From positions 1,612,001 to 1,676,000 of the forward strand of contig NZ_CP120997.1 in the NCBI RefSeq assembly GCF_030719295.1: a stretch of 64,000 nt of DNA. Reading direction: 5' to 3'. Of this stretch, positions 2,059 through 18,598 are shown in pieces. Under the pieces are notes generated by a model, which saw nothing but the letters and a program-made list of their open reading frames with translations, was not told where the DNA came from and did no database searches. Positions within the stretch are counted from its first letter, which is position 1, and the number at the start of each line of letters is the position of its first letter. Source of the stretch: Streptomyces sp. Mut1 (GTDB lineage Bacteria > Actinomycetota > Actinomycetes > Streptomycetales > Streptomycetaceae). The translations under genes and the position numbers were made by a program.

Positions 2059-2985
2059 ATGCAGCACACCGAGGCCGAACTGGCGCAGGTGCTGCACACC
2101 GGACCGTTCCATCTGGCGCTGCGCACGGCGCTCTCGGTGCGCGGGCTGCCGCTCCAGCGGGTCCAGCACCATCTGGCGCACCGCGGGATCAAGGTCGGGG
2201 TGACCAGCCTGAGTTACTGGCAGCAGGGCGCCCGCCGCCCGCAGCGCCCGGAGTCGCTGCGGGCCGTGAAGGCGCTGGAGGAGGTGCTCGGCCTGCCGGT
2301 GAACTCGCTGCTCGGGCTGCTGGACGCCGCGGAGTCCCGCCCGGACACCGACCGCCCGCCGGCCAGGACGTACCGCTCGCTGATGGACGCCTCCGGGGCG
2401 GTGGAGCGGCTGCTCGCGGACCTGGAGTCACCCGCCGACGGCGGGCTGCACACGGTGGGCCACCAGGAGCGGGTACGGATCGGGCCCGGCCGCCAGATGC
2501 AGCACCGCGACTCCCAGCACGTCGTGCGCGCCCACCGGGACGGGATCGACCGTTACCTCGCCGTGTACATCGGTGATCCGGGCTGCGATCCGGGGCAGGT
2601 CGTGGTGAGCGCCCGGGAGAACTGCCGCACGGGCCGGGTCCGCTGGGACCGGGAGACGGGGGTGCTGGTCGCCGAGCTGCTCTTCGACACCCGGCTGCGG
2701 GCGGGCGACACGTACCTGTTCGGCTACGGCTTCGAGGACGGTACGGGAGGGCCCTGCGGCGAGTACCTGCGGGGTTTCACCTTCGGCGGCGGGCAGTACG
2801 TGCTCCAGGTCGGCTTCGACGAGGAGGCGCTGCCGGTGCGGTGCCGCAGTTTCGCCCAGGTGTCGGCGGGCGCGCCCCGGGGCGCGCGGGCGGATCTCAC
2901 GCTCACCGGCCGGCACCGGACCGTGCATCTGGTGGAGCAGGGTGTGCGGCCGGGGCTGGTCGGGATCGACTGGGACTGGGATTAG
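2059..2985 (+). CDS. HTH (XRE-like) transcriptional regulator with beta-rich C-terminal domain
   Basis: 308 residues from the ATG that follows GGAGGA; a longer frame upstream lacks a ribosome site. Residues about 10-80 resemble an XRE-type helix-turn-helix: LSVRGLPLQRVQHHLAHRG, then VTSLSYWQQGARRPQR, then an ALEEVLGLP helix. The C-terminal 170 residues are rich in beta strands and aromatic residues and end IDWDWD; I do not recognise them. Proteins of this build are common in Streptomyces. It is divergent from the secreted protease operon, with palindromic sites between them, so that operon is the likely target. The ligand, if any, is unknown. Confidence 0.65.
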   Translation: MQHTEAELAQVLHTGPFHLALRTALSVRGLPLQRVQHHLAHRGIKVGVTSLSYWQQGARRPQRPESLRAVKALEEVLGLPVNSLLGLLDAAESRPDTDRPPARTYRSLMDASGAVERLLADLESPADGGLHTVGHQERVRIGPGRQMQHRDSQHVVRAHRDGIDRYLAVYIGDPGCDPGQVVVSARENCRTGRVRWDRETGVLVAELLFDTRLRAGDTYLFGYGFEDGTGGPCGEYLRGFTFGGGQYVLQVGFDEEALPVRCRSFAQVSAGAPRGARADLTLTGRHRTVHLVEQGVRPGLVGIDWDWD

Positions 2986-3006
2986 ACCGGCCCGCCGGGG
3001 CCGGTC
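2985..3006. terminator. Bidirectional hairpin between the HTH regulator and the Rieske gene
   Basis: GACCGGCCC pairs with GGGCCGGTC (9 bp) around a 4-nt loop, lying between two convergent genes and overlapping the TAG of the regulator gene. Confidence 0.55.
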
Positions 3007-3015
3007 CCGGCGGGG

Positions 3016-3444
3016 TCAGGCGTTGGGGCCCGCGATCAGTTTTCCGCCCTCGACGCGGACCGGGACGGAGGGCAGCGGCACGGTCGCGGGGCCGTGCACG
3101 GCCTTTCCGGTCGTCGTGTCGAAGAGGCTGCCGTGGCAGGGGCAGTGGCCCTCGTTCTTCTCGACCTTGTCCAGCAGGCAGCCTGCGTGGGTGCACTGGG
3201 CGCTGAAGGCCTTGTACTGCCCCTTGGCCGGGCAGCTGACGATGACGCGCTGCTCGCGGAAGAGCTTGGACTCGCCGACCGGGATCTCGTCCGGCGCGCC
3301 GAGTTCGACGGGGGCGGTGGGGGTGGGCGTCTCGGCGTGGCCGAGCTTCGAGTCGGTCGAGCAGGCGGCCGCTCCGAGCCCGGCGACGCCCGCGAGGGCG
3401 GCGCCCTTCAGCACGGTGCGGCGGGCGGCGGGCTGGCCGGACAT
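3016..3444 (-). CDS. Tat-exported Rieske [2Fe-2S] protein
   Basis: 142 residues from ATG; longer upstream starts only add low-complexity sequence. The N-terminus carries a twin-arginine signal (ARRTVLKG, hydrophobic run, GLGAAAC) whose Cys could also be a lipobox. The Rieske ligands are present as CTHAGC and CPCHGS, giving the Cys-X-His / Cys-X2-His set, and the distal Cys residues of the two motifs could form the usual disulfide. The protein is therefore a small extracytoplasmic electron-transfer or oxidoreductase subunit. No partner enzyme lies next to it, so its electron donor and acceptor cannot be told from the window. Confidence 0.88.
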   Translation of the reverse strand: MSGQPAARRTVLKGAALAGVAGLGAAACSTDSKLGHAETPTPTAPVELGAPDEIPVGESKLFREQRVIVSCPAKGQYKAFSAQCTHAGCLLDKVEKNEGHCPCHGSLFDTTTGKAVHGPATVPLPSVPVRVEGGKLIAGPNA

Positions 3445-3611
3445 GCGGTCTCCACGGGTCGAAGCGACAGATGGGGCAGGGTGCGAGGCCGTGCCGGAGC
3501 TGCCCGGGGCGGCGGCGGCATCGGTGCGGTAACCGACGATACCGGCGGAGAAGGACGTGTCTGCGCGCGGGCCGGTCCCGCCCGGTCGTGCCTGGTCAGG
3601 GTCGGGGTACG

Positions 3612-12339: not shown

Positions 12340-14487
12340 TCAGGCCAGACCGGCCTCACGCATCTGGCGCAGCTCCTTCTTCAACTCCCCCACCTCGTCG
12401 CGCAGTCGGGCGGCGACCTCGAACTGGAGGTCGGCCGCGGCGGCGCGCATCCGGTCGGTCATCTCCTCGATGATCCCGGCGAGCTCGGTCGCCGGGCGGT
12501 CGGTGACCGCCGCCGCGTCCCGGCCGGCCTTCCCCTTCCCGCCCTTCGCCGCCTTCCCGTCGCCCGGGACGGCGTGCTTCCCGAGCGTGGGCACGGGCGC
12601 CTTGCCCTCCTTGGCCTGGCGGTAGCCGGTGCCGAGCAGCTGCTCGGTGTCGACCTCCTCGCGCGCGATCGTGGCGACGATGTCGTTGATCTTCTTGCGC
12701 AGCGGCTGCGGGTCGATTCCGCGCTCGGTGTTGTAGGCGATCTGCTTCTCGCGGCGGCGGTTGGTCTCGTCGATGGCCTGCGCCATCGCCGGGGTGACCT
12801 TGTCCGCGTACATATGGACCTGGCCCGAGACGTTGCGCGCCGCGCGGCCGATGGTCTGGATCAGGGAGGTGCCGGAGCGCAGGAAGCCCTGCTTGTCGGC
12901 GTCGAGGATGGCCACGAGGGACACCTCGGGCAGGTCGAGGCCCTCACGCAGGAGGTTGATGCCGACCAGGACGTCGTACTCGCCGGAGCGCAGCTCCCGC
13001 AGCAGCTCGATGCGGCGCAGCGTGTCGACGTCGCTGTGGAGGTAGCGGACCTGGATGCCGAGCTCCAGGAAGTAGTCGGTCAGGTCCTCGGCCATCTTCT
13101 TGGTGAGGGTGGTGACCAGGACCCTCTCGTCCTTCTCGGCGCGCTCGCGGATCTCGTGCACCAGGTCGTCGATCTGGCCCTCGGTGGGCTTGACGACGAC
13201 CTCCGGGTCGATGAGGCCGGTGGGGCGGATGATCTGCTCCACGAAGCCGTCGCCCCGGGACAGCTCGTAGTTTCCGGGGGTCGCGGAGAGGTAGACCGTC
13301 TGGTTGATCCGTTCGAGGAACTCCTCCCACTTCAGCGGGCGGTTGTCCAGGGCGGACGGCAGCCGGAAGCCGTGGTCGACCAGGGTCCGCTTGCGGGAGG
13401 CGTCGCCCTCGTACATGGCGCCGATCTGCGGCACGGTGACGTGGGACTCGTCCAGGACCAGGAGGAAGTCCTCCGGGAAGTAGTCAAGGAGGGTGTTGGG
13501 GGCGGTGCCGGGGGAACGGTCGTCGAAGTGCATCGAGTAGTTCTCGACGCCGGAGCAGGTGCCGATCTGGCGGAGCATCTCGATGTCGTACGTCGTGCGC
13601 ATGCGCAGCCGCTGGGCCTCCAGCATCTTGCCCTGCTTCTCCAGCTCGGCCAGGCGCTGCTCCAGCTCCTGCTCGATGCCGGTGACGGCCTTCTCCATGC
13701 GCTCGGGCCCCGCCACGTAGTGGCTGGCGGGGAAGACGTGGAGGGACTGGTCCTCGCTGATGACCTCGCCGGTGAGCGGATGCAGGGTGGACAGGGCCTC
13801 GATCTCGTCGCCGAACATCTCGATGCGGACGGCGAGCTCCTCGTAGACCGGGAAGATCTCGATGGTGTCGCCGCGCACCCGGAAGGTGCCGCGGGTGAAG
13901 GCCAGGTCGTTCCTCGTGTACTGGATCTCCACGAAGCGGCGCAGCAGCTGCTCGCGGTCGATCTCCTGGCCCACCTTGAGCTGGACCATCCGGTCGACGT
14001 ACTCCTGCGGCGTACCCAGGCCGTAGATGCAGGAGACGGAGGCGACCACGACGACGTCGCGCCGGGTGAGCAGCGAGTTGGTCGCGGAGTGGCGCAGCCG
14101 CTCGACCTCCTCGTTGATCGAGGAGTCCTTCTCGATGTAGGTGTCCGACTGCGGGACGTACGCCTCGGGCTGGTAGTAGTCGTAGTACGAGACGAAGTAC
14201 TCGACGGCGTTGTTGGGCAGGAGCTCGCGGAATTCGTTGGCGAGCTGGGCGGCGAGGGTCTTGTTCGGCGCCATGACCAGGGTGGGGCGCTGCAGCTTCT
14301 CGATCATCCAGGCGGTGGTGGCGGACTTGCCGGTGCCGGTCGCGCCGAGGAGCACGACGTCCTTCTCACCCGCCCGGACGCGCTTCTCCAGCTCGGCGAT
14401 GGCCGTGGGCTGGTCGCCGCTGGGCTGGTAGGGACTGATGACCTCGAAAGGCGCCACCGTACGTTCGATCTTCGAGACTGGCCGCAT
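12340..14487 (-). CDS. uvrB: UvrABC excinuclease subunit B
   Basis: 715 residues. UvrB is the damage-verifying helicase that receives DNA from UvrA and recruits UvrC. Visible motifs are Walker [12 protein letters not shown] near residue 48, the beta-hairpin [12 protein letters not shown], helicase motifs [12 protein letters not shown] and SATPGNYE, motif [11 protein letters not shown], and a C-terminal UVR domain [20 protein letters not shown] that contacts UvrC. A Gly/Lys/Ala insert of about 40 residues precedes the UVR domain. There is no Shine-Dalgarno site: the ATG lies 6 nt behind a perfect damage-type promoter, so a leaderless, damage-inducible mRNA is expected. Confidence 0.98.
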
Positions 14488-14493
14488 GAATCC

Positions 14494-14516
14494 ACCGTAC
14501 GACCCCCCACTGACAA
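14494..14516 (-). promoter_or_regulatory. DNA-damage (PafBC/RecA-NDp type) promoter of uvrB
   Basis: Reading toward uvrB: TTGTCAGTG, 8 nt, TACGGT, then 6 nt to the ATG. This fully matches TTGTCRGTG-N8-TANNNT, the LexA-independent damage promoter recognised through PafBC in mycobacteria. Confidence 0.85.
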
Positions 14517-15660: not shown

Positions 15661-16605
15661 GTGTACGCAGGCACCGCTACCGCCTCCGTCGCCGCTGCCG
15701 CCCTGATGGGCGCCGGCACGTTGCTGATGCCGGGCACCGGCACGCCGGTCACGGACACCCCCGCGGCCCGGCGGCCCGCGCCCCAGCTCGCCCCGGTCCG
15801 TCATGCCACCGACGCCACGGCCCGGGGCCCGCGCGTCTTCGCGCACCGAGGGGCCTCCGCGTACGCCCCCGAGAACACCCTCGCCGCCGTGGACAGGGCC
15901 GACGCGCTCGGCTTCGACTGGGTGGAGAACGACGTCCAGCTCACCAAGGACGGGGTGCTGGTCGTCATCCACGACACGGACCTCAAGCGGACGACGAACG
16001 CCGAGGAGGTGTTCCCGGACCGGGCGCCCTGGGCGGTCAAGGACTTCACGGCCGCCGAGATCTCCCGGCTGGACGCGGGCAGCTGGTTCGGTGCGAAGTA
16101 CACCGGTACCCGGGTGCCCACCCTCCACCAGTACCTGAAGCGGATCACCCGCAACCGGCAGAACCTCCTGCTGGAGATCAAGAGCCCCGAGATCTACCCG
16201 GGGATCGAGCGGGCCACCCTCCAGGTGCTGAACCAGGAGGGCTGGCTGGACCGCAGCCACGTCAGGGACCGCCTCGTGATCCAGAGCTTCGGGGCCGACA
16301 GCGTGCGCACGGTGCACGCACTGCGCCCGGACGTGATCACGGGCTTCCTCGGCACCCCGGCCGTCGCGGAGCTGCCCTCGTACGCCGCGTTCACCGACCA
16401 GATCAACCCGTCCTACACCACCCTGTCGGGCGACTACGTGGCGGCGGTGCACGCGCTGAAGGGGCCGCACGACAAGAAGCTCCAGGTGAACACGTGGACG
16501 GTCAATGACGCGACGCACGCGCTCCAGGTGAACGGCATGGGCGTGGACGGCATCATCAGCAACACCCCCGACGTGGTGCGCGCGGCGACCCGCCCGGGTT
16601 CCTGA
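15661..16605 (+). CDS. Secreted glycerophosphodiester phosphodiesterase
   Basis: 314 residues from a GTG preceded by AGGAG at 6 nt. A short N-terminal hydrophobic segment (ASVAAAALMGAGTLLM) predicts export. The GDPD fold is clear: FAHRGASAYAPENT (catalytic His-Arg), WVENDVQLTKDG (Glu and Asp metal ligands), VVIHDTDLKRTT (second His), and LLLEIKSP. These enzymes release glycerol-3-phosphate from deacylated phospholipids, supplying phosphate and carbon. Sequence such as SWFGAKYTGTRVPTLHQYL is typical of the actinobacterial group. The orphan damage promoter lies 28 nt past its stop codon. Confidence 0.92.
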   Translation: MYAGTATASVAAAALMGAGTLLMPGTGTPVTDTPAARRPAPQLAPVRHATDATARGPRVFAHRGASAYAPENTLAAVDRADALGFDWVENDVQLTKDGVLVVIHDTDLKRTTNAEEVFPDRAPWAVKDFTAAEISRLDAGSWFGAKYTGTRVPTLHQYLKRITRNRQNLLLEIKSPEIYPGIERATLQVLNQEGWLDRSHVRDRLVIQSFGADSVRTVHALRPDVITGFLGTPAVAELPSYAAFTDQINPSYTTLSGDYVAAVHALKGPHDKKLQVNTWTVNDATHALQVNGMGVDGIISNTPDVVRAATRPGS

Positions 16606-16632
16606 CCTCCCGGGACCGGCCGCCGCCGTCCG

Positions 16633-16655
16633 TTGTCAGTGGCCGGTCGTACGGT
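16633..16655 (+). promoter_or_regulatory. Orphan DNA-damage type promoter
   Basis: TTGTCAGTG, 8 nt, TACGGT, followed by 7 nt and an ATG at 16663. It is as good as the uvrB element and shares additional bases with it (GGTCGTACGGTGG). The reading frame behind it (MNSNGVVTWA, open for 50 codons) runs antisense into the 3' end of a methyltransferase gene and does not look like a protein beyond the first ten or so codons. Confidence 0.7.
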
Positions 16656-16681
16656 GGTTCCCATGAACAGCAACGGGGTCG

Positions 16682-17530
16682 TCACGTGGGCCGGGGCGGC
16701 CCTTCGCCGTCCGCCCCGGGCCCGCGTGCCACCAGTACCGGCTGGAAGAAGCCCGACTCCTCCGGCTCGTGCCAGGCGGGCTCCGTCAACCCGGCCCGCC
16801 GTGCGAACGCGGTGAGCTGTGCCTGCGACAGCGCCCAGTACGAGGTGCGGCGCGTACGCACCTCGTACGCGGCGTCCCCGGCCTCCCCCGCACCGCCGGG
16901 CAGCAGCTGGAAGTGCTCCAGGTCGTAGCGCTCGCCGTCCGGCCTCCAGTGCCAGAGCTGGAAGGTGACGACCCGGCCGCCGGTGTCCTGCCTGACCTGC
17001 GGCGGTGTGGACGCGGGCCGTTCGCGGCGCAGCCGGTCGTACGGCCGGGTGGACAGCAGCAGCACGCCGCCGGGCCGCAGCACCCTGCGCATCTCGCCGA
17101 GCGCGGCCTCCACCGCCTCCGGTGTGAGCAGGTGCGGCAGCGAGTTGTCCGCGCACACGACGACGTCGAACAAGCCGTCACCGAACGGCAGCCGCGTCAT
17201 GTCGGCGGCCAGGGTGCGCAGGCCCAGCCCGCGCGCGGCCGCCTCCCTCGCGGCGCGGCCCGCGGCCACGGGGCTCAGGTCGCTGCCCGTGACCCGGTGT
17301 CCGCGCGCGGCGAGGCCCAGCGCCTGGGTTCCGATGCCGCAGGCGCAGTCCAGCACGTCGTGGGCGACGCCCTCGCCGCTCCCGAGGGCCGCGTCGATCA
17401 GGGTGGAGAGCGCGGTCGCCTGGCGGTCGATGCTCGCCTGCCAGTCGGCGTACATGAGGTCGTAGCCGGCGGCCAGGCCGTCGTAGAAGTGACGCACGGT
17501 GGCGAGGGCGGGAGTCGTCGCGTGCCGCAT
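16682..17530 (-). CDS. Class I SAM-dependent methyltransferase
   Basis: 282 residues. A Rossmann methyltransferase domain is shown by VLDCACGIGTQALGLAARG (SAM motif I), VTGSDLSPVAAGRA (motif post I), ADMTRLPFGDGLFDVVVCADNSLPHL (motifs II-III) and MRRVLRPGGVLLLS. The N-terminal AAGYDLMYADW resembles glycine/sarcosine N-methyltransferase-type enzymes, but the substrate cannot be fixed. The last residues (GADGEGPPRPT) overlap the orphan reading frame behind the damage promoter. It is divergent from psuG, with 126 nt between. Confidence 0.85.
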   Translation of the reverse strand: MRHATTPALATVRHFYDGLAAGYDLMYADWQASIDRQATALSTLIDAALGSGEGVAHDVLDCACGIGTQALGLAARGHRVTGSDLSPVAAGRAAREAAARGLGLRTLAADMTRLPFGDGLFDVVVCADNSLPHLLTPEAVEAALGEMRRVLRPGGVLLLSTRPYDRLRRERPASTPPQVRQDTGGRVVTFQLWHWRPDGERYDLEHFQLLPGGAGEAGDAAYEVRTRRTSYWALSQAQLTAFARRAGLTEPAWHEPEESGFFQPVLVARGPGADGEGPPRPT

Positions 17531-17656
17531 GCGCTGACCCTAACGCGCTTGGGTGCACGGGGTGGTGGGACTTTTCGCGCCATCGCCCCGTCCGCGCGCG
17601 GGCGCACGCCGTCACCGCACGTTTGAGCCCCGCCCGCCCGCGACAGGGATGTGGAC

Positions 17657-18598
17657 ATGTCACTAACTGCGCGCTCCGACGCCGGCCCGTACGCCCCCGC
17701 GCTCTCCGCCGAGGTGCGGGACGCCCTCGCCGCACACCGGCCCGTCGTCGCCCTGGAATCGACGATCATCGCCCACGGTCTGCCCCGCCCCCGTAATCTG
17801 CGGGTCGCCGAGGAGCTGGAGGGGCTCGTGCGGTCGGCCGGGGCCGTCCCCGCCACCATCGCCGTGCTGGACGGCCGGGCCAGGGTCGGCCTGGACAAGG
17901 CCGAGCTGGAGCGGGTGGCCGAGGACCCGGCGATGCGCAAGCTGGGCCACCGCGACCTCGCCCCGGCCCTGGCGGCGGGCGCGAGCGGGGCGACGACGGT
18001 GTCCGCGACCGCCTTCCTCGCCGCCCGGACGGGGCTGCGGATCTTCGCGACCGGCGGGCTCGGCGGGGTGCACCGGGGCTGGACGGAGACCCAGGACGAG
18101 TCGGCGGACCTGCGGCTGCTGGCGCGGACCGGAATGACCGTGGTCTGCGCGGGCGTGAAGTCGATCCTGGACGTGCCGGCCACGCTGCAACGCCTGGAGA
18201 CGCTGGGGGTCGGGGTGCTGGGCTACGGCACCGACCGGTTCCCCGGCTTCTACCTGAGCAGTTCGGGCGAGCCGGTCGACTGGACGGTGGAATCGCCGGA
18301 GGAGGTCGCCGAGGTGATGCGGGCCCAGGACGCGCTCGGCGGCCCGGACGCGGCGCTGATCGTGGCCAACCCCGTACCGCGTGCGCGGCAGCTGGACCCC
18401 GCCCTGCACGACCGGGTGCTCGCCGAGGCGCTGGCGGCGTGCCGGGAGCGGGGGGTCGTGGGGCAGGCCGTCACGCCGTTCCTGCTCGACCATCTGACGC
18501 GGCACACGAAGGGCGCGTCCCTGGAGGCCAACCTCGCGGCCGTCCGCGGCAATGTGACGCTCGCCGCCCGCATCGCCACCGCCTGGACGGCCCGGTGA
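17657..18598 (+). CDS. psuG: Pseudouridine-5'-phosphate glycosidase
   Basis: 313 residues from ATG; a GTG two codons earlier is possible. PsuG cleaves the C-C glycosidic bond of pseudouridine 5'-phosphate to uracil and ribose 5-phosphate. Family sequence is visible throughout: RPVVALESTIIAHGLPRP, ATIAVLDGRARVGL, KLGHRDL, GATTVSATAFLA, FATGGLGGVHRG and VVCAGVKSILDV, including the Lys and Asp/Glu residues of the active site. The next gene, a PfkB kinase, overlaps by 4 nt and supplies the phosphorylated substrate, so the pair forms a pseudouridine-catabolism operon. Confidence 0.95.
   Translation: MSLTARSDAGPYAPALSAEVRDALAAHRPVVALESTIIAHGLPRPRNLRVAEELEGLVRSAGAVPATIAVLDGRARVGLDKAELERVAEDPAMRKLGHRDLAPALAAGASGATTVSATAFLAARTGLRIFATGGLGGVHRGWTETQDESADLRLLARTGMTVVCAGVKSILDVPATLQRLETLGVGVLGYGTDRFPGFYLSSSGEPVDWTVESPEEVAEVMRAQDALGGPDAALIVANPVPRARQLDPALHDRVLAEALAACRERGVVGQAVTPFLLDHLTRHTKGASLEANLAAVRGNVTLAARIATAWTAR

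Follow-up and report, generated by a model that had tools for sequence, protein, structure and literature searches.

A RecA-NDp/PafBC-type promoter in Streptomyces sp. Mut1 that very probably outlived its DNA-repair gene, ogt

Introduction

RecA-NDp promoters of actinobacteria reportedly were the subject of work by Gamulin in 2004. In the passages that bear on this subject, such promoters are placed before S. coelicolor recA and SCO6735 (PMC5087735), a PafBC motif variant is given as TGTCAG-N10-TA-N3-T (PMC8151990), and a PafBC-type motif also appears in PMC6789036. Reviews and structures of PafBC are available (PMC8223512, PMC11804915, PMC6789036). According to one section of PMC8151990, the M. 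tuberculosis alkA-ogt operon carries a putative SOS box and is still induced when recA is deleted and pafBC is knocked down. For S. venezuelae, a passage of a 2022 paper mentions a first search, by which the M. smegmatis PafBC motif did not seem to be conserved (PMC9380542), and this goes against a conserved PafBC regulon in Streptomyces; in that passage, the question of a RecA/LexA-independent damage response in Streptomyces is left open. Among the literature titles found, none dealt with ogt under a RecA-NDp/PafBC-type promoter in Streptomyces.

The locus described here lies in a 64,000-nt stretch of the Streptomyces sp. Mut1 genome (contig NZ_CP120997.1), called the window below, and coordinates refer to this stretch unless stated otherwise. 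A first-pass annotation, made from the sequence alone, proposed that an orphan damage promoter in the window is the remnant of a lost repair gene. Synteny and alignment support this proposal, and the promoter with the first codons behind it can with high confidence be read as the scar of a deleted DNA-repair gene, ogt. The features of the locus are collected in Table 1.

Table 1. Features of the ogt-remnant locus and of the uvrB site in the window
Feature	Coordinates	Strand	Basis
uvrB (assumed name)	12340..14487	-	ATG at 14487, 6 nt after promoter
Second exact promoter copy, before uvrB	14494..14516	-	pattern match
Glycerophosphodiester phosphodiesterase (PF03009), syntenic anchor	15661..16605	+	Pfam, synteny
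Predicted RecA-NDp/PafBC-type promoter, now orphan	16633..16655	+	pattern match; relatives have it upstream of intact ogt
5' remnant of ogt, 7 to about 10 codons with ATG	16663..16693	+	alignment, blastn
Chimeric leaderless reading frame, 50 codons (ogt start plus methyltransferase antisense)	16663..16815	+	ORF, alignment
Probable deletion scar: ogt body, ogt stop and short gap to methyltransferase missing	16681..16709		blastn against seven relatives; G116 arrangement
SAM-dependent methyltransferase (Methyltransf_25/11), open	16682..17530	-	Pfam, ORF, blastn
Next gene on promoter strand	17651..18598	+	ORF; closely behind ogt in L082, L083, L101

The orphan promoter and the gene start behind it

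The element TTGTCAGTGGCCGGTCGTACGGT follows the pattern TTGTCAGTG-N8-TACGGT and, exactly as first described, is followed after a gap of 7 nt by an ATG at 16663. It also has the TGTCAG-N10-TA-N3-T layout of the PafBC motif variant. The 8.0-Mb genome (4 contigs) contains two exact matches to the pattern, one here and one before uvrB, and both lie in the window. When up to two mismatches are allowed, 30 genome matches are found and none for the pattern read backwards; at up to three mismatches, the window holds 4 matches where shuffled sequences predict 0.57. The gene in Table 1 that we take to be uvrB was named by recognizing its sequence, without a family search. The geometry had been described as the same at both sites, which holds for the motif, though the gap at uvrB (motif at 14516-14494, minus strand) is 6 nt rather than 7; both spacings are usual.

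The genome also carries pafB and pafC (2626-3579 and 1655-2611 of locus L179, minus strand, the start of the second being our choice) one gene away from pafA, and their products match the PafBC structures 7p5x, 6sj9 and 9fnd in the PDB. The same element stands before DNA-repair genes elsewhere in this genome. From these sequence features, the element is predicted to be a promoter of the actinobacterial RecA-NDp/PafBC kind. A promoter and terminator scan gave no match, with 0.1 of each expected by chance, and is thus of little weight.

The frame that opens at 16663 begins with MNSNGVVTWAG and ends with a stop at 16813-16815. From about 16694 onward it runs antisense to the methyltransferase gene; the initial description of MNSNGVVTWA followed by a shadow of the methyltransferase 3' end was accurate. 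The suspected resemblance of its start to O6-methylguanine-DNA methyltransferases was also borne out, as up to 29 of its first 31 nt, ATG included, are identical to those of intact ogt genes. The six best intact starts listed each agree at 29/31, and the next-best placement within a locus gives 18-21 of 31 in the 15 loci listed. The right end of the remnant is ambiguous, between about 16681 and 16693. The predicted 50-residue product matches no Pfam family at E 0.001 and so does not combine a PCHR active site with the PF01035 domain, as a functional Ogt would. What is found is what an ogt pseudogene should look like: homologous sequence in the syntenic position, and a coding capacity that has been destroyed, with ogt homology ending by 16693 (16696 with two relatives).

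The ogt locus across Streptomyces

The first-pass annotation had tentatively put an O6-methylguanine-DNA methyltransferase gene beside this phosphodiesterase in other Streptomyces, and comparison with related genomes, the check that it had proposed, does place ogt there. A DNA search with positions 16560-16800 matched 168 of 199 genomes of the genus, the best match after the genome itself coming from a conspecific (G155, 93%). In G116, about 0.55 kb separates the two halves of the query, and in G070 about 2.5 kb; in these and other genomes, a DNA-level reading shows an intact ogt of some 180 codons, with PCHRVV, whose start is 6 or 7 nt behind the promoter. When named genomes were scanned with the phosphodiesterase, 165 relatives were found, of which the best 80 were kept. 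Among these best 80 of 165, a full-length ogt follows the same glycerophosphodiesterase, with the same promoter, in 74 loci, and an open ogt begins 6-7 nt after the promoter in 72. With starts allowed from 5 to 9 nt after the motif, the gap is 6 or 7 nt in all 72 open frames. Near the end of the phosphodiesterase gene, the best motif match has 0-2 mismatches in 74 of the 80 loci and 3 or 4 in four, and no motif was found in two.

Eight loci are exceptions to the combination of ogt and promoter. The gene is broken in L077, L079 and L108 (the last with a weak promoter), broken at a C run that might be a sequencing error in L140, interrupted by a run of N at a contig end in L145, and intact from a second start in L112. 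In L117, neither ogt nor promoter was found behind the phosphodiesterase. The ogt of L094 is otherwise intact and has the active site ACHRVV instead of PCHRVV. No different short gene was noticed in the place of ogt in the 80 loci, which were checked for ogt, the methyltransferase and psuG only.

The sequence beyond ogt is more variable. The convergent methyltransferase comes next in G116, L081 and L084, its stop 9 nt from that of ogt. In L080, L085, L086 and L089, the distance from the phosphodiesterase to the methyltransferase is 2-2.6 kb, and other sequence separates the latter from ogt. In L082, L083 and L101, the next gene on the promoter strand begins about 120-140 nt after ogt and there is no methyltransferase match. 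The methyltransferase is patchy in the genus (83/392 genomes at E 1e-60).

The Mut1 genome has two ogt matches, the best at 8.4e-29, compared with 3e-47 or better in 374 of 392 genomes of the genus (by eye), a count of matches wherever they lie in the genome. Eighteen of the 392, this genome included, are without an ogt match better than 1e-40 (counted by eye). The phosphodiesterase is present in 13 of the 18; the other five (G017, G079, G112, G359, G379) gave no phosphodiesterase match at E 1e-40. Among the 13, a promoter beside a lost or broken ogt is found only in the window genome and its conspecific. G121 has the promoter and a diverged ogt-like frame behind the phosphodiesterase, and G288 has a 3' piece of ogt (by eye) and no promoter. 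The motif lies 111 and 173 nt on in G051 and G258, before another frame, and only 4-mismatch matches about 0.9 kb on are seen in G135 and G113. In G100, G192, G272, G345 and G330, no motif with up to four mismatches was found within the 1.5 kb scanned behind the phosphodiesterase.

An ogt that had moved elsewhere was also considered and rejected. No ortholog was found in the rest of the genome, where the match of 8.4e-29 is the best and three other PF01035 proteins are encoded. Two of these (L061, L062) have both MGMT domains and PCHR; the third reads PWWRV and presumably resembles the alkyltransferase-like proteins. With two other Ogt-type genes remaining, the loss of ogt is probably buffered and therefore tolerable.

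The deletion junction and the closest relatives

The junction was mapped by blastn of the window against seven relatives (L077, L078, L079, L080, L081, L084, L085). Homology on the left is unbroken from the phosphodiesterase gene through 16693 in L077, L078, L080 and L085 and through 16696 in L081 and L084; it ends at 16622 in L079, which has no promoter. Methyltransferase homology resumes at 16709 (L080, L084, L085) or 16719 (L081). In L077, L078 and L079, where the gene is broken, it does not resume before 17370, 17074 and 17229, respectively. The last codons and the stop (16682-16684) of the window methyltransferase lie in or against the ogt remnant, and two mismatched remnant positions adjoin this stop. 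Because the methyltransferase stops of L080, L081, L084, L085 and G116 read TCAGGCG, the stop in the window could be the original one, which would put the junction closer to 16681. The methyltransferase 3' ends of relatives are partly similar to the end of the remnant, which leaves the exact junction ambiguous and fixable no closer than 16681-16693, a span of about 12 nt. The tail of the window methyltransferase differs from the relatives' tails listed.

A phosphodiesterase gene tree (19 rows) pairs the window with the conspecific ATexAB-D23 (100/99), which is L077 and has the same sequence as G155. A1277 (L079) and A0958 are next by path, in either order. In ATexAB-D23, the start codon of ogt has been lost and codons up to about 39 are kept, plus an end piece (by eye); most of the methyltransferase is gone, the promoter copy has two changes, and the sequence differs from the window where the chimeric frame lies. 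All that is left of the two genes in A1277 is ogt residues 105-179 and methyltransferase residues 2-86. In A0958, ogt is intact behind a perfect promoter, and the methyltransferase match is partial (residues 1-180). Thus, three different broken ogt loci occur among these four genomes, and the window alone has a perfect promoter without the gene. Relatives with the same promoter and no gene had been named as the pattern that would speak against a lost repair gene; such a case was seen only in ATexAB-D23, whose promoter copy is altered at two positions and whose ogt is broken rather than missing. The sequences are compatible with either a living or a dead ogt in the common ancestor with ATexAB-D23. 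Reduction of the convergent methyltransferase to a fragment in ATexAB-D23 and A1277 indicates that decay extends to the entire ogt-methyltransferase junction in this clade.

These observations can be joined into a simple history. The ancestral order very probably was the glycerophosphodiesterase gene, the RecA-NDp/PafBC-type promoter, an ogt of 180 codons starting 6-7 nt after the promoter, and the convergent methyltransferase gene. One or more deletions in this strain very probably then took away ogt, from about codon 7-10 up to and including the stop, together with the short gap to the methyltransferase, such that the intact promoter and the first ogt codons now abut the methyltransferase 3' end. 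The promoter might still fire after damage. If so, the resulting leaderless RNA would encode the 50-residue chimeric peptide and then extend into sequence antisense to the methyltransferase gene, and it would probably have no function.

Alternative roles for the promoter and the chimeric frame

An orphan promoter might also be kept or re-used, either as the source of a damage-induced antisense RNA that reduces methyltransferase expression or for read-through into the next gene along its own strand. The promoter does point into the convergent methyltransferase gene, and the scan of 16550-17700 showed no terminator-like site, a result that says little when only 0.1 would arise by chance and a T run is required. 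The position of the downstream gene in L082, L083 and L101, closely behind ogt, also would suit read-through, as would a promoter that is letter-perfect here and has two changes in ATexAB-D23. However, the loss of ogt is recent. The phosphodiesterase gene differs from that of ATexAB-D23 at 7 of 194 four-fold sites, so that about 0.4 changes would be expected in 23 nt on the window branch without selection; at so small a divergence, the zero observed is uninformative and the perfect promoter is no evidence of selection. The putative antisense target is mostly gone in ATexAB-D23 and patchy in the genus. Furthermore, untranslated RNA is exposed to Rho, which would apply to any transcript past 16815. 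Retention or re-use of the promoter is therefore improbable. A bolder version is, by a little, harder still to credit: the loss of ogt would have rewired the damage promoter, such that a PafBC-driven antisense or read-through RNA shuts off the methyltransferase, or turns on the downstream gene, upon DNA damage. That gene we take to be a pseudouridine-5'-phosphate glycosidase gene (psuG), which would probably make the target pseudouridine catabolism.

It is very unlikely that the chimeric frame has become a new functional small gene. It stays open for 50 codons and has the start geometry of other sites, but it belongs to no Pfam family, its body is antisense to the methyltransferase gene, and ATexAB-D23 has different sequence there. 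A chance motif combined with a chance resemblance to ogt, for which nothing but the shortness of the remnant might be cited, is rejected as next to impossible given the excess of the pattern over shuffled and reversed controls in window and genome, the synteny, the blastn continuity through 16693 and the 29/31 identity.

RecA-NDp/PafBC-type sites in the genome and the genus

Frames behind 22 of the 30 genome sites (up to two mismatches) were scanned with Pfam; six sites (L013, L014, L018, L019, L023, L030) were judged by eye, without a Pfam scan, to be chance matches. Repair-type families behind the sites include RecA, uracil-DNA glycosylase, MgsA, PD-(D/E)XK, DnaN, Lhr-type helicase, DEAD helicase and exonuclease. 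Others are PrsW protease, a pentapeptide protein, DUF2797, a transport permease, SWIM, HEPN, MoxR-like AAA, a methyltransferase-NUDIX fusion and a TnpB-type protein, and several of the families found have no known repair role. Four or five of the scanned frames (L006, L015, L027 and L029 included) have no Pfam family. Among the starts that lie 6-7 nt after the motif are those of uvrB, the MgsA-type ATPase, the PD-(D/E)XK nuclease and the Lhr-type helicase; the DEAD helicase starts at 9 nt, and dnaN, uracil-DNA glycosylase and the exonuclease at 38-49 nt. For recA, a GTG lies 7 nt after the motif and shares its frame with an ATG at 43.

Several individual sites deserve mention. The TnpB-type protein (OrfB_IS605, Cas12f1-like TNB; L022:270-1493) starts 7 nt after the site at 5223969-5223947 (minus strand) of G000:C1. 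The L011 frame, with methyltransferase, NUDIX and glyoxalase-like domains, starts 6 nt after the site at 1374129-1374107 (minus strand) of G000:C1, whose last hexamer, CACGAT, is off consensus. Two divergent sites 25 nt apart (L007, L021; G000:C1:4887018-4887088) precede SWIM zinc-finger and MoxR-like AAA proteins, and similar divergent pairs are present in G017 and G112. G095 has three similar RecA-NDp-type sites with GTG starts.

Strict leaderless sites, TTGTCAGTG-N8-TANNNT-N6/7-RTG, are found in all 101 Streptomyces genomes drawn (2 to 21 in each), and the reversed pattern gives 0 matches in each. A looser pattern (2 mismatches) gives 8-45 sites in 18 genomes, compared with 0-4 reversed-control matches. 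As predicted sites, these appear to be in tension with the remark on S. venezuelae in the passage cited above (PMC9380542).

Comparison with known systems

The orphan element resembles the RecA-NDp/PafBC promoters of actinobacteria in its TGTCAG-N10-TA-N3-T layout, in the presence of the same element before DNA-repair genes and in a genome that has both pafB and pafC. It differs from them in that no functional gene stands behind it. An ogt behind a conserved RecA-NDp-type promoter, as in 72 of the 80 named loci (best 80 of 165), is unlike the mycobacterial arrangement as given in the section of PMC8151990 on the M. tuberculosis alkA-ogt operon. RecA-NDp-type sites can be read from sequence in Streptomyces, and the list of sites makes the question of a RecA/LexA-independent response there directly testable.

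The remnant aligns with the start of the gene for Ogt, the O6-methylguanine-DNA methyltransferase (PF02870 and PF01035, TIGR00589), in the syntenic position, and differs from that gene in consisting of 7-10 codons only, without the catalytic domain. Overall, the loss of ogt here is an ordinary gene-loss event that left a well-preserved scar, not a new system. As in other gene-loss pseudogenes with surviving promoters, there is a deletion scar with an intact element upstream, and the present case is unusually clean, as both the start codon and a perfect promoter have been kept.
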